DNA of 44,224 nt, taken from contig JAIQGC010000033.1 in the NCBI GenBank assembly GCA_020072805.1, positions 1 through 44,224 on the forward strand, in the 5' to 3' direction. Positions within the stretch are counted from its first letter, which is position 1. Every line of letters starts with the position of its first letter. Under the pieces are notes generated by a model that was not told the DNA's origin, searched no databases, and was given only the letters and a program-made list of their open reading frames with translations. This DNA is from Terriglobia bacterium (lineage in GTDB: Bacteria; Acidobacteriota; Terriglobia; Acidiferrales; UBA7541). Positions 515-5,293 of this stretch are shown here, one piece after another. The position numbers and the translations under genes were made by a program.

Positions 515-549
515 TTGACACCACCCCCAACCCGATCAACGATCCGATC
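515..549 (+). promoter_or_regulatory. Candidate promoter with three GATC sites upstream of the methyltransferase
   Basis: An exact -35 hexamer TTGACA lies at 515-520. A 17-nt spacer would place a weak -10 (AACGAT) at 538-543. GATC occurs at 534, 541 and 546, overlapping the putative -10 region. The downstream gene is a predicted GATC methyltransferase, so methylation-dependent autoregulation is possible. This is inference only. Confidence 0.4.
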
Positions 550-612: not shown

Positions 613-1809
613 GTGCCCAAACTCCCTTCCAACTCAACCTCCGCCAGCGCCTCGCCCGGCGTCGTGAAAACCCACTTGCCCCCTCCCGCCTTCGACGACC
701 CCAAACACCATCTGCGCATCTATCAGGGCGATTGCCTCGATATCCTCGCCGCCATCCCCGCCGATTCCGTCGACCTCATCTTCGCCGACCCGCCCTATTT
801 CCTCTCCAACGGCGGTATCACCTGCCACGCCGGTAAAATGGTCTCCGTCCACAAAGGCGATTGGGACAAATCCCGCGGCGCGGACGCCAACCACGACTTC
901 AACCGCGCCTGGCTCGCCGCGTGCCAGCGCGTCCTCAAACCCAACGGCTCCCTCTGGGTCTCCGGCACCTCCCACGTCATCCATTCCGTCGGCTTCGCCA
1001 TGCAACAGCTAGAATTCAAGCTCCTCAACGACATCTCCTGGGTCAAGCCCAATCCCCCTCCCAATCTCTCCTGCCGCTATTTCACCCACGCCACCGAAAC
1101 CATCATCTGGGCCGCCAAGAATAAAAAATCCCGCCACACCTTCAATTACCCGCTCATAAAGCGCCTCAACGGCGGCAAACAAATGAAGTCCGTCTGGACC
1201 ATCCCTCCTTCCGAATCCTGGGAAAAACGCTTCGGCAAACACCCCACTCAAAAACCCGTTGCCCTCCTCGAACGCATCCTCCTCGCCTCCTCCAACGAAG
1301 GTGATTTGGTCCTCGACCCGTTCATGGGCGGTGGCACCACCATCTTCTCCGCCATGCGCCTCCGCCGCCGCGCCCTCGGCTGCGACTTGAGCCTCGAATC
1401 CATCGAGCTGTCAGTCCGCCGCATCTGCTCCGATCTGGTACAGGTCCATCTTTCTCTCTCCTGCTTCCAGTTTTCCCTTGATCTCTTTCCCGATCCTATG
1501 GATCGATCGGATCGCGCTCCGCACGGACCGAATCTGTCATCCCGAGCGCAGCGATGGATCTGCTTTTCGCGGCCGCCTTCGGAAACGGCCGCGAGCATCG
1601 GCGCCGACAACTCAACCGTGTCTTCCCATCTCCAACTCGTCCAGCAAGAACGCCGCTTCTACTTCGTCGGCCGCACAAACCGCGAAATCATCTTTTCCGT
1701 CCTCGCCCCCACCCTCGACGACGCCCGCCAACAATTCCGCACCTCCGGCCACTCAGATTCCGACGCCCTTTTCATCATCAAGACCGAAACCGAAATCTAC
1801 CTCGCCTGA
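613..1809 (+). CDS. DpnA/M.DpnII-like adenine-N6 DNA methyltransferase with repeat-derived C-terminal extension
   Basis: Transfers a methyl group from S-adenosylmethionine to DNA. The order is beta-class: DPPY (residues 59-62) comes first and the SAM-binding DPFMGGGTT motif (about 235-243) near the end of the core. Blocks such as ADPPYFLSNGG, GDWDK, NLSCRYFTH, TETIIWA and GKHPTQKP match the DpnA (M.DpnIIB) type as I remember it, so GATC is the expected target. The core ends near residue 270. The remaining 125 or so residues are unusual: about 280-335 are encoded by a low-complexity, GATC-rich stretch plus a dispersed palindrome, followed by an unrecognised tail. The start is GTG at 613; GTG 664 is an in-frame alternative. 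The DpnI-like nuclease gene follows 70 bp downstream. The family is sure; activity and exact site specificity are not. Confidence 0.9.
   Translation: MPKLPSNSTSASASPGVVKTHLPPPAFDDPKHHLRIYQGDCLDILAAIPADSVDLIFADPPYFLSNGGITCHAGKMVSVHKGDWDKSRGADANHDFNRAWLAACQRVLKPNGSLWVSGTSHVIHSVGFAMQQLEFKLLNDISWVKPNPPPNLSCRYFTHATETIIWAAKNKKSRHTFNYPLIKRLNGGKQMKSVWTIPPSESWEKRFGKHPTQKPVALLERILLASSNEGDLVLDPFMGGGTTIFSAMRLRRRALGCDLSLESIELSVRRICSDLVQVHLSLSCFQFSLDLFPDPMDRSDRAPHGPNLSSRAQRWICFSRPPSETAASIGADNSTVSSHLQLVQQERRFYFVGRTNREIIFSVLAPTLDDARQQFRTSGHSDSDALFIIKTETEIYLA
1480..1571 (+). repeat. GATC cluster and HPERSEG-type dispersed repeat inside the methyltransferase frame
   Basis: GATC occurs at 1480, 1492, 1501, 1505, 1510 and 1557, with one more just upstream at 1432. 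From about 1536 the sequence (gtcatcccgagcgcagcg and onward) matches, on the opposite strand, a repeat at 19736-19771 with about 31/35 identities. An 8-bp perfect inverted repeat (cgcggccg / cggccgcg) follows at about 1568-1594. The element is read through in frame and adds residues to the methyltransferase. Confidence 0.75.
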
Positions 1810-1879
1810 TTTGCCCTAACCATATAGGAACCGGGCTCCTCTCTTCCTTTTTCCTCCCGTACCATGATCTAATCCCCGC

Positions 1880-2648
1880 GTGGACCTCCATCTCCCCACA
1901 CGCGGCCTTGACCGCTACAAAAGCGCCTCGCAACGCGCCCGAGTAAGTACCGAACCATGGGGAGCCAAGAATCTCTACTGCCCCGCTTGCGATTCGCCGC
2001 GCATCGAGTCTTTCCCGACGAACACACCCGCACTAGATTTCAACTGTCCCTCATGTCACGCATTGTTCCAACTTAAGAGCAAGTCCAGTTCATTCGGGCG
2101 GAGGGTTCAAGACGGCTCATTCGACTCCATGAGACGCACGATTTTGGCAGACCGGACGCCAAACCTTTTCTTGCTGCGCTACTCACTACCCGACTTAATA
2201 GTCAGGGACGTCCTTCTGATTCCACACTTCGTTTTCAGCCTGTCTCTCTTGGAAAAAAGGAAAACCGCTTTCTGTCAACGCGGACCGGGCGGGTTGGGTA
2301 GGGTGCAATTTCCTACTGGATAGCGTTCCATCAGATGCTCGGATTGCAGTCGTAGCTGAAGGCAAAGCTATTCCGGTTTCGTCTGTGCGTCGGGCTTATG
2401 GCCGCCTCCGCCCACTCGAAAAAATGCGCGTCGAAAAACGCGGCTGGACCCTCGACGTCCTGAACGCCGTCCGCTCCCTCCATAAAACCGAATTTTCTCT
2501 CACCGATATCTACGCTCACGCGGACACGCTCGCCCGCCTCCACCCCCGCAACGCCCACATCCGCGAAAAAATCCGCCAGCAACTCCAAATCCTCAGAGAC
2601 TTGAGCCTCCTCGACTTTCTCGGCGGCGGCGACTACCGCCTGCGGTAA
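1880..2648 (+). pseudogene. DpnI-like (Dam-replacing family) restriction endonuclease, broken by one frameshift
   Basis: Read from GTG 1880, the first frame gives a DpnI-type PD-(D/E)XK domain. It has zinc-ribbon cysteines C34, C37, C56 and C59, an N-terminus YKSASQRARVSTEPW, and LDF...FQLKSK carrying the catalytic positions D53 and K66. The second acidic position (E64 in DpnI as I recall it) is Q here. The frame leaves homology in the run ggaaaacc at 2259-2266. Resuming one base later restores PLSVNADRAGWVGCN and then the winged-helix domain (RGWTLDVLN, HIREKIRQQLQILRDL), ending at 2648. DpnI cuts Gm6ATC on both strands; this copy is inactive if the shift is real. Local GC (about 50% on one hand-counted line) is below that of neighbours, suggesting acquisition. 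Alternatives are a sequencing error in the A-run or a +1 programmed shift. Confidence 0.88.
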
Positions 2649-2988: not shown

Positions 2989-3618
2989 ATGCTCTTCTAC
3001 CGCCGCAACCTCCCCCATTGGCTCCCCGAGGGCAAAGTCATCTTCATCACCTGGAGGCTCCACGGTTCGCTTCCCGCCTCGCTCCGCAGAACAGGCCGCA
3101 CAGGCAGGAATGCCTGTGCCACAAAACCTTCCGTTCGCGGCAATCCAGCATCCCCCGGCAGAAAATTCCTGCAACTGGACTCCGCCTTGGACACCGCCAA
3201 ATCGGGCCCTCTTTGGCTCGCCGATCCGGAAATCGCCGGCTACGCCGAATACCCCATCGTGCGCGGCGCCGAACTCGGCCGCTTCCAATTGCATGCCTAT
3301 GTCATCATGCCCAACCACGTCCACATTCTGTTCGAGCCTCGCCTGCCCCTTGCCAAAATCACCGGTGTCCTCAAAGGCGTCGCCGCGCGGGACGCCAATG
3401 CCACTCTAGGACGCTCTGGCAAACCCTTCTGGCAGGACGAATCCTTCGATCACTGGGTCAGGAATTCCACGGAGTTTGAGCGCATCCGCCACTACATCGA
3501 ATGGAATCCCGTGCGCGCCGGACTCGTCACCCAGCCCGAGGACTGGAGTTGGTCCAGCGCAGGCAGCCCATTCTTCAAGGGAACAGGCATTCCCGGCTCC
3601 GCCGGAAGCAGCGGGTAA
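2989..3618 (+). CDS. REP-associated tyrosine transposase (RAYT, Y1/IS200-like)
   Basis: Single-strand-specific HUH/Y1 nuclease of the TnpA-REP class, which nicks REP hairpins and is thought to spread them. The HUH motif is in MPNHVHILF (about residues 107-115). The C-terminal signature FWQDESFDHWVRN then RHYIEWNPVRAGLV contains the likely catalytic tyrosine (about 169) and ends in the usual EDWSWSSA. It starts with ATG at 2989, giving NLPHW near the N-terminus as expected. Oddity: residues about 33-46 (RRTGRTGRNACAT) are encoded by a REP palindrome lying inside the gene, apparently an in-frame insertion of the element it mobilises. It sits directly downstream of four REP hairpins. Probably functional or recently so, since the frame is intact. 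Confidence 0.93.
   Translation: MLFYRRNLPHWLPEGKVIFITWRLHGSLPASLRRTGRTGRNACATKPSVRGNPASPGRKFLQLDSALDTAKSGPLWLADPEIAGYAEYPIVRGAELGRFQLHAYVIMPNHVHILFEPRLPLAKITGVLKGVAARDANATLGRSGKPFWQDESFDHWVRNSTEFERIRHYIEWNPVRAGLVTQPEDWSWSSAGSPFFKGTGIPGSAGSSG
3098..3119. repeat. REP palindrome inside the RAYT coding sequence
   Basis: gcacaggca-ggaa-tgcctgtgc matches the hairpins at 2775 and 2947 except for the loop. It is read in frame in the transposase gene. Confidence 0.88.
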
Positions 3619-4015
3619 CTTGGAACAATCTTTCTCCGCGCCCTCTGCGTCTCAGCGTTGAATCCCCTCCTCTTTTTTCAATTTCTGCTTTCCAGTTTTC
3701 GCTTTTGCCTCTCCAACCCCCGCAAAACAAACGCCTTACAATTATCCAATTGACAAACAGTACTTCTAATGCTATATTTTTTGTGAACCTCGCCCCTCAC
3801 CTCATTCCATCTTTACCTCATTCCCTCCTCCTCTAAGTCCTTTATTTGCCACTCTTACAAACTTCGCCCCCCGTAACCCCCTTTATTTGCCACTCTTACG
3901 AAAACTGCCGGCGTGTACCCATTCTCTTCCCAAAATGGAACTCACCCCCTGCTCGCCATTCCCCCCTCTCCCGCCCTCGACTCCGCCCCTCTTCTTCCGC
4001 TATTCTTGCAGCATC
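3619..4015. other. Pyrimidine-rich intergenic region before serS
   Basis: No gene is supported. The + strand is strongly C/T-rich and holds the right copy of the 36-bp direct repeat (3629-3664). Two near-identical runs, tttatttgccactcttac at about 3841 and 3883, form a further 18-bp direct repeat. The open frame of serS extends upstream to 3887, but that part lacks synthetase homology. Confidence 0.65.
3629..3664 (+). repeat. Direct repeat, right copy (partner 439-474)
   Basis: 33 of 36 positions are identical to 439-474 in the same orientation. It begins 10 bp after the RAYT stop codon and closes the accessory block on the right. Confidence 0.75.
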
Positions 4016-5293
4016 ATGCATGACCTGAGCTTCTTCCGCGAACACCTGGACCTCTACGCCGCCATGGCCAAAAACCGCGCGGCCACGCTCGATCTCGAAC
4101 GCTTCCGCGCGCTCGACAGGGAGCGCCGCGAACTCATCACCGCCAACGAGCAGCTCAAGGCCCAGCGCAACAAGGCCAGCGACGAAATCGCCCGCCTCAA
4201 GAAGGAAAAGCAGGACGCCGGCGCGCTCATCGCCGAAATGAAGCAGGTCTCCGAGCGCATCAAGCAGGCCGACGAACGCATCGCCGCGCTGGACGCCGAA
4301 CAGCGCGAATTTCTTCTGGTCATCCCCAATCTCCCGCACAGCTCCGTCCCCGTGGGCGCCAGCGCCGCCGACAATAAAGAAGTGCGCCGCTGGGGCGCGC
4401 CGCCGAAATTCGATTTCACCCCCAAGCCCCATTGGGAAGTCGGCGAACGCGCCGGAATTCTGGATTTGCCCGCGGCGGCGAAAATCACCGGCGCGCGCTT
4501 TGCCGTCTACAAAGGATGGGGAGCGCGTCTCGAACGCGCCCTGGCCAATTTCTTTCTCGACGTGCACACCCGCGAGCACGGCTACACGGAAATTCTCCCG
4601 CCCTTCATCGTCAACACCGCTTCGCTCACCGCCGCGGGCCAGCTCCCCAAATTCGCCGCCGACCTCTTCAAGCTGCAGGACACCGACTACTGGCTGACGC
4701 CCACCGCCGAAGTTGAACTGCACAATCTCTATCGCGACGAAACCCTTACGGAAGAACAGCTGCCCCTCTGCGTCACCGCATGGACCGCCTGCTTCCGCTC
4801 GGAAGCCGGCGCGGCGGGAAAAGATACCCGCGGCATTCTGCGCCAGCACCAGTTCCAGAAAGTCGAACTCTTCAAATTCACGCATCCGGAAAAGAGTTAC
4901 GAAGAGCACGAAAAACTCGTGGCCAACGCCGAAACCATTCTGCAAAAGCTCGGCCTGCACTACCGCACCGTGCTGCTCTGCACCGGCGACATGGGCTTTG
5001 CCTCCTCGAAAACCTACGACATCGAAGTCTGGCTGCCCTCGAGCAACGAATTCCGCGAAATTTCCTCCTGCTCGAACTGCGAAGCGTTTCAAGCGCGCCG
5101 CGCGGGAATCCGCTTCAAGCCCAAGGCCGGCGGAAAAAATGAATTCGTGCACACGCTCAACGGCTCCGGTCTGGCCGTCGGACGCACCTGGATTGCCGTC
5201 GTGGAAAACTACCAGCAAGCCGACGGCTCCATCCTCATTCCGGAAGTCCTGCGCCCCTATATGGGCGTCGAGCGCATCCCGGCGGCCGGTTAA
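4016..5293 (+). CDS. serS: Seryl-tRNA synthetase
   Basis: Class II aminoacyl-tRNA synthetase that charges tRNA-Ser, and tRNA-Sec where present, with serine in the cytoplasm. About 425 residues, normal for the family. The N-terminal part is a long charged helical arm ([19 protein letters not shown] onward), the tRNA-binding coiled coil. Motif 2 is [21 protein letters not shown] and motif 3 is [11 protein letters not shown], both complete. The frame is open from 3887, but ATG 4016 is chosen because [13 protein letters not shown] is the standard SerRS N-terminus and the upstream codons are low-complexity. SelB further right would use seryl-tRNA-Sec made by this enzyme. Confidence 0.97.

Follow-up and report, generated by a model that had tools for sequence, protein, structure and literature searches.

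The DpnII cassette of pneumococci carries a DpnA-type methyltransferase. In Streptococcus pneumoniae, DpnI, DpnII and DpnIII have been described as alternative cassettes, and most pneumococci are reported to carry one (PMC12707154). A methyltransferase was found to silence a nuclease that cuts its product in Pectobacterium carotovorum (PcaRCI/PcaRCII), acting through one site that overlaps a predicted extended -10 element (PMC8989522), and in CfrBI and LlaDII the methyltransferase gene is described as being controlled by methylation of its own promoter (PMC3874152). Among more than 1,000 winged-helix (wH)-fusion nucleases, 87% had no methyltransferase within three genes on either side and fewer than 100 possible genome-wide conflicts were reported; adjacent N4-methylcytosine or N6-methyladenine (m6A) methyltransferases were frameshifted, and tight expression control was named as one way round the conflict (PMC11037411). 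Here we describe a locus in which a DpnA-type methyltransferase (M, used for gene and protein) lies directly before a DpnI-type nuclease (R, likewise). It was encountered in 44,224 nucleotides of DNA from a soil bacterium of the Terriglobia (assembly GCA_020072805.1, contig JAIQGC010000033.1, positions 1-44,224 of the forward strand), hereafter the window.

The locus resembles the pneumococcal cassettes in its DpnI-type nuclease and DpnA-type methyltransferase, both of the GATC kind, but here the two halves are adjacent and, in relatives, intact. PcaRCI/PcaRCII is alike in that a methyltransferase coexists with a nuclease cutting its product, the latter being silenced through a -10 site; as described, however, that case involves two separate systems, 5-methylcytosine and an HNH nuclease, with the restriction-modification (R-M) system thought to be the later arrival (PMC8989522), whereas here a single locus recurs in three phyla with a DpnI-type nuclease, probable m6A at GATC and three GATC elements. 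Cognate sites in the methyltransferase control region are shared with CfrBI and LlaDII, which appear in their source as ordinary R-M systems (PMC3874152), whereas here the partner belongs to a methylation-dependent family. The wH-fusion m6A-dependent nucleases are also PD-(D/E)XK-wH enzymes, some with an adjacent m6A methyltransferase, but the adjacent methyltransferases named in that account are frameshifted (PMC11037411), whereas at least 12 of the loci described here combine an intact R with an open M core. No published M/R pair of this kind was found in the open-licence literature, with REBASE outside the scope of the search, which is weak evidence of novelty; the principle is known, and its conserved form with a DpnI-type nuclease in the same locus is, as far as our searches go, new. 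What was a single reported conflict (PcaRCI/PcaRCII) is extended to a genetic unit that has been kept repeatedly and whose sequence hints at how the pair survives, and three GATC elements with one nuclease offer a simple testable circuit.

The M core is directly upstream of an intact R in eight loci of the family (L004, L005, L007, L015, L016, L017, L019 and L020), and M directly precedes an intact R in at least four further loci, from an Acidobacteria metagenome-assembled genome (MAG; L082), Candidatus Didemnitutus (L113), Candidatus Sumerlaeaceae (L121) and an Opitutae MAG (L128). These loci, at least 12 in all (L083 is another record of L020 and L084 of L015, and neither adds to the count), represent three phyla, Acidobacteriota, Verrucomicrobiota and Candidatus Sumerlaeota, and 13-201 bases separate the end of M from the start of R. 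Two more copies were counted as paired, giving 14 paired R: L011, where M is inferred from the end of an M tail beside a run of N, and L018, where a contig end has cut M down to its last part. Among the 89 genomes used for family-level counts, M is found in 22, R in 22 and both in 12, partial and broken copies included (Fisher's test, P = 4.6e-4). Counted by genome at E 0.001, again with broken and partial copies, PF06044 has a match in 9 of 36 at genus level, in 22 of 89 at family level (21 above the family cut-off) and in 12 of 396 in a phylum sample. The ratio of nonsynonymous to synonymous substitution rates (dN/dS) is 0.11-0.30 for M in six pairs, and 0.11-0.15 for R in the three of these six with unsaturated dS, and both genes are constrained. 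Chance adjacency is ruled out by the number of loci and phyla, and local decay as the sole explanation by the intact pairs elsewhere. The first-pass annotation, made from the letters of the window alone, had expected a mixed locus to be unusual in another phylum; the check for co-occurrence with an intact nuclease in related genomes instead turned up a conserved arrangement.

In the window itself R is broken. One piece (1880-2320) matches PF06044 (3.1e-38, residues 1-128), its only Protein Data Bank (PDB) match being DpnI (4esj, 4.8e-24); the other (2280-2645) matches PF17726 (2.9e-26) plus the end of PF06044 (6.3e-06). The two pieces thus carry both domains of the DpnI family, catalytic and winged-helix (DpnI_C), and the intact R of L005 matches 4esj over residues 1-253 (1.2e-52). 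Because both pieces are recognisable and lie in different frames, the gene was broken once, between about 2250 and 2285; R is dead in this genome and only M can work there. The frameshift had been recognised at first pass, as had the six residues at DpnI numbers (zinc cysteines 34, 37, 56 and 59, Asp53 and Lys66). The accompanying suggestion that the nuclease is dead holds for the window genome, but not for the 12 or more loci in which R stands intact beside M.

The residues by which DpnI contacts guanine, holds m6A and cuts (R126, L129, R135, W138, G140, D53 and K66), as well as its metal ligand Glu64, have been assigned (PMC4117772). None of the 14 paired R has lost any of the first seven; the window R keeps R135, W138 and G140, and its L129 position is not aligned. 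At position 64 the window R has Gln, as do all 23 intact R of the same branch (14 paired and nine unpaired), and these 23 also keep D53 and K66; the seven ordinary DpnI homologues compared all have Glu there. In the R tree all Gln64 proteins form one group (support 100/98), within which paired and unpaired R are interleaved. Active enzymes of the MspJI family are listed with the motif (D/E)..(D/E/Q)XK, and so with QXK variants (PMC3874153), so Gln64 alone is not proof of a dead R.

R also occurs by itself. Ten family genomes have an R match and no M match (M at E 1e-60), and seven of these have an R locus free of truncation, breaks and an adjoining run of N. Six of these seven (G027, G035, G039, G049, G055 and G081) have no match to the Dam-type family PF02086, and the seventh, G082, has one; G039 has lost its M core to a deletion but retains an intact R. 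Because intact R occurs in genomes where neither this M nor PF02086 was found, R seems to be tolerated on unmethylated DNA, although some of these genomes are incomplete and may hold other GATC methyltransferases; the completeness listed for G027, G035, G049, G055 and G081 is 94, 98, 95, 85 and 72%, and an M could have been missed in the last two.

M is an open frame at 613-1809 encoding 398 aa, with a PF01555 match of 3.7e-57 and DPPY preceding DPFMGG, the motif order of the beta class. It is 53% identical, across 91% of the 276-residue core, to a methyltransferase of the Lactococcus plasmid pSRQ700, which bears out the DpnA-type assignment made at first pass. The pSRQ700 gene has a 'DNA adenine methylase' gene on one side and a gene for a type II nuclease on the other, a system that we take to be LlaDCHI with the site GATC. 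The best relative with a solved structure is CcrM (6pbd). DpnII, Sau3AI and MutH act on GATC. For DpnII and Sau3AI, this specificity is given in PMC5608340. The four further pairs outside the eight family loci and the other relatives of M considered next come from the best 80 of at least 571 confirmed stretches, so the true spread of the pair is wider. Within these 80, one relative without the C-terminal tail considered below (L088) adjoins a DpnII-type enzyme (PF04556, 3.6e-91); another (L107) adjoins a MutH/Sau3AI-type enzyme (PF02976, 4e-13; NF040973, 8.5e-20, under the model cut-off); others adjoin a further frequent nuclease type, here named GGxGG; and beside many no partner was recognised by the queries used. 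The region KQMK.VW...GKHPTQKP is common to M and its untailed relatives in the alignment. Because relatives adjoin DpnII- and MutH/Sau3AI-type enzymes, M is probably GATC-specific and most likely methylates the adenine. A most likely GATC methyltransferase beside a DpnI-type nuclease with its m6A pocket kept should form an antagonistic pair, so the clash of specificities predicted in the first-pass annotation still stands.

Three GATC-bearing elements were found at the locus (Table 1). Element (i) lies upstream of M, at 515-544 of the window, where AACGAT (538-543) follows TTGACA by 17 bases and overlaps the second GATC; from TTGACA and this spacing, it appears promoter-like. Across the 89 family genomes the pattern TTGAC-N12..16-GATCAACGATC is matched 16 times, where base composition predicts 0.3; 15 of these matches lie immediately upstream of M or R, and the reversed pattern has none; GATCAACGATC alone occurs three times in the 3.98 Mb of the window's own genome, against about one expected. 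In other phyla, GATC clusters upstream of M differ in sequence. At least two GATC within 30 bases upstream of M were counted in 23 of 26 tail- or DpnI-associated loci versus 21 of 69 others (P = 3.7e-7; with L160, which the motif had wrongly tagged as tail-bearing, moved to the others, 23/25 versus 21/70, P = 5.2e-8), related loci not being independent. Element (ii) is the DNA encoding the linker between the M core and tail. With linker limits set by motif, the linkers of 23 tail-bearing M genes hold 103 GATC, versus 27.9 predicted by shuffling synonymous codons (the highest of 300 shuffles gave 40), and that of the window holds six versus 2.8; the C-terminal part of 63 untailed M genes holds 21 versus 23.4 expected.

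Element (iii) stands just before R. Its pattern, TGATCTAAT-N6-GTG, has 20 matches in the 89 genomes and one in the reversed control. Since about 12 are expected from base composition, the placing rather than the total counts: 17 of the 20 are at this locus, 15 before R and two before a NucS_C-like nuclease that has replaced it, and three are elsewhere. Read as a promoter, the element would be an extended -10 (TGn-TCTAAT) so close to the start codon, at six bases, that the transcript could be leaderless. All 15 paired R (the 14 and the window copy) have a GATC within 20 bases upstream of the start, at a nearly fixed place; six of nine unpaired Gln64 R do so, and none of seven Glu64 R. For this count the starts of L012 and L128 were set at the ATG aligning with Met1 of DpnI; L032 has no GATC in the 20 bases before its true start (the first Met), nor in those before the earlier codon from which it was counted. 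The GATC is steadier than the adjoining TAAT, which L113, L121 and L128 alter while retaining GATC.

Within the genes GATC is sparse. The M core holds 14 versus 32.5 expected and paired R 15 versus 39.1, with none of 400 shuffles as low in either case; the counts are 17 versus 26.8 for unpaired Gln64 R and 19 versus 25.1 for Glu64 R. Three neighbouring genes in the window have 25 versus 25.3 expected, and the whole window shows no avoidance (164 versus 152). GATC, the one motif examined, is concentrated at possible control positions of the locus.

The conserved pair, the kept m6A pocket with D53 and K66, and the conserved, locus-specific GATC elements are observed directly. On this basis we favour a matched antagonist pair held together by methylation-controlled expression, and put the chance that M silences R by methylating GATC control sites at the locus at about even. 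M would methylate GATC and R would cut fully methylated Gm6ATC, the two coexisting by way of GATC in control sequences upstream of M, in the linker DNA and just before the R start. As long as M kept GATC methylated, the sites near R would be methylated and R silent; where methylation was absent or lost, R would be made and would destroy DNA marked with Gm6ATC. In the window genome R would have been broken afterwards. The GATC specificity of M, argued from homology and neighbours, the activity of R on Gm6ATC, and silencing rather than activation are the presumptive parts of this account. Silencing is favoured because GATC, the one motif that both enzymes would be expected to read, clusters at possible control places and because PcaRCI/PcaRCII offers a precedent. 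The first-pass annotation had listed three ways out of the clash, and this one was not among them; Gln64, the M tail and the GATC elements were likewise absent from it.

Several results weigh against such silencing. A scan for the sigma-70 consensus found no promoter in the stretch of element (i), and AACGAT agrees with TATAAT at three of six positions. Because GATC clusters also precede other M genes (the 21 of 69 above, some with MutH-type partners), element (i) may be mere self-control of M. The GATC before R persists in most of the unpaired Gln64 R, and the difference between paired and unpaired reaches just P = 0.04. Untailed M cores also avoid GATC somewhat (157 versus 183.8 expected, none of 400 shuffles as low), so the avoidance is not special to the pair. 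Given Gln64, R may be weak, dead or altered, and on a transcript shared with M it might escape silencing by element (iii) alone.

A more tentative extension is an epigenetic toggle wired through the GATC sites of the locus, in which a cell would be either methylated with R off or unmethylated with R on and restricting Gm6ATC DNA. Populations could hold both states, and the linker cluster with internal starts could allow the M tail to be expressed by itself as a third product. If so, the same genes would give two opposite kinds of phage and plasmid defence. An ATG or GTG lies within 16 codons before the tail in 22 of 23 tail-bearing M genes, and the tail might for this reason also be produced alone.

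An ordinary type II R-M system, in which R has switched to cutting unmethylated GATC, M protects the host and the GATC sites serve feedback control of M and R, is the strongest competing explanation, though we consider it unlikely. The conserved order and spacing resemble an R-M operon, the Gln64 change marks the very branch that holds the paired R, some M genes with an upstream GATC cluster have conventional MutH-type partners, and M also precedes other nucleases that replaced DpnI. However, the m6A pocket is complete in all 14 paired R, and intact Gln64 R occurs without this M or a PF02086 enzyme in G027, G035, G049, G055 and G081 and persists in G039 after loss of the M core. The interleaving of paired and unpaired R in the tree also argues against a switched specificity. 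The first-pass proposal that R now cuts unmethylated DNA is weakened by the same observations and survives as this rival.

It is less probable still that M normally leaves host GATC unmethylated, whether through another site, silence or a tail that limits it to certain DNA, so that invaders are marked and then cut. The tail speaks for such a role. It is in frame on M beside intact R in 11 of the 12 loci (in L015 a frame change after the M core puts it in another frame), whereas by motif, among the best 80 of at least 571 stretches, it was not found on M beside DpnII, MutH or GGxGG-type nucleases; one tail-bearing M is followed by an Mrr-type enzyme (L050). It aligns across tail-bearing M from several phyla, is joined to the core by a linker (residues 280-337) predicted to be disordered, and when modelled alone with AlphaFold2 reaches a mean predicted local distance difference test score of 95. 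It has no clear PDB match, the fold search giving weak and mixed matches (best Z 4.1); a RAMA-type domain as in CcrM was considered and lacks Pfam support, and nothing was concluded. On the M tree, however, the tail label departs from the phylogeny, needing 10 changes of which at least five are forced (L113 was left untagged by the motif used); because so many are needed, partly from short or decayed M copies counted as untailed, a single gain is unsupported. The GATC-type neighbours of untailed relatives and the common KQMK.VW...GKHPTQKP region also argue against a redirected M, as does the concentration of GATC, the sole motif examined, at control positions. The earlier suggestion of another site for M is accordingly diminished and persists as part of this alternative.

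EcoRI E111Q is cleavage-deficient. A non-catalytic R that binds Gm6ATC written by M, for instance at the GATC elements of the locus, and acts as a regulator would suit both the Gln at metal-binding position 64 throughout the branch and the clusters as ready targets, but is the least probable of these alternatives, as retention of D53 and K66 in 23 of 23 R is unexpected if cutting was lost and QXK is among the variants listed for the active MspJI family (PMC3874153).

Table 1. Features of the M/R locus in the window
Feature	Positions	Strand	Details and basis
Promoter-like element upstream of M	515..549	+	TTGACA 515-520; GATC at 534, 541, 546
M, probable beta-class N6-adenine DNA methyltransferase, DpnA/M.LlaIIB type, core ~residues 34-276	613..1806	+	PF01555; pSRQ700 enzyme; neighbours of relatives
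M linker-coding stretch with GATC cluster	1432..1560	+	GATC at 1432, 1480, 1492, 1501, 1505, 1510, 1557
C-terminal tail domain of M (strand-strand-helix-strand)	1621..1806	+	Alignment across several phyla; AlphaFold2
TGATCTAAT element before R	1865..1873	+	GATC at 1866; ends 6 bases before the R GTG start
R first piece, DpnI-type catalytic domain (zinc cysteines, D53, Q64, K66)	1880..2263	+	PF06044; DpnI 4esj
R second piece, other frame: end of catalytic domain (R135, W138, G140) and winged-helix domain	2280..2648	+	PF17726, PF06044

The drg locus of Neisseria gonorrhoeae (L025:3006-5187) also has a DpnI-type gene (3006-3764) near a DpnA-type methyltransferase match (4001-4726), and we call it drg (dam replacing gene) because, by eye, it follows a leuS-like frame. 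Here, however, M is interrupted, with no more than 125 codons in an open frame, and a GGxGG-type nuclease comes after it; R carries Glu64 but no Trp138, and GATC is missing from the 20 bases upstream of the R start. At L090:625-2340 a single open frame, judged by eye, fuses a DpnA-type methyltransferase with a GGxGG-type nuclease, and a DpnI remnant lies downstream.

Other genes now follow M in some family genomes. The tail-bearing M of L050 precedes an Mrr-type enzyme (PADLOC mREase_IV, 6.8e-94), M of L048, L052 and L057 is followed by NucS_C-like nucleases (weak matches), and a DndB/DGQHR-type protein follows M in L044 and L047. DpnI remnants persist downstream in L048, L050 and L057. At L050:2643-3708, L048:2896-4050 and L057:790-1893, the Mrr-type or NucS_C-like nuclease has replaced the DpnI gene in place and the remnants are C-terminal; in G038 and G044 (L052 and L057) the TGATCTAAT element now stands before the replacing nuclease. 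An EVE/PUA domain was suspected in the replacing nuclease of L048, L052 and L057 and dropped as unconfirmed, so we do not claim that tail-bearing M pairs solely with modification-dependent nucleases.

DGQHR/DndB-type proteins adjoin M or R at L044:2744-4174 (DpdB, 8.8e-18), L047:2724-4100 and L006:2316-3290 (reverse-strand numbering; by eye). Nuclease-like proteins sharing, by eye, an E[VI]EH[SG][ST] stretch follow M or R at L104:5189-5956, L109:5318-6055, L138:4363-5139 and L004:2365-3294; those of L104, L138 and L004 have no Pfam or NCBIfam match (L109 was not scanned), and together they are a candidate new partner family. In L012 and L013, R is directly behind what appears by eye to be the end of dnaN, and TTTGATCAAA still precedes its start. 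In the window, a REP-associated tyrosine transposase is encoded at 2989-3618 (PF01797 passes its cut-off; NF047646, 76.5 bits, just misses its cut-off of 80) with short repeated stretches on its 5' side, and similar transposase-like frames were seen by eye near the related loci L003 and L048.

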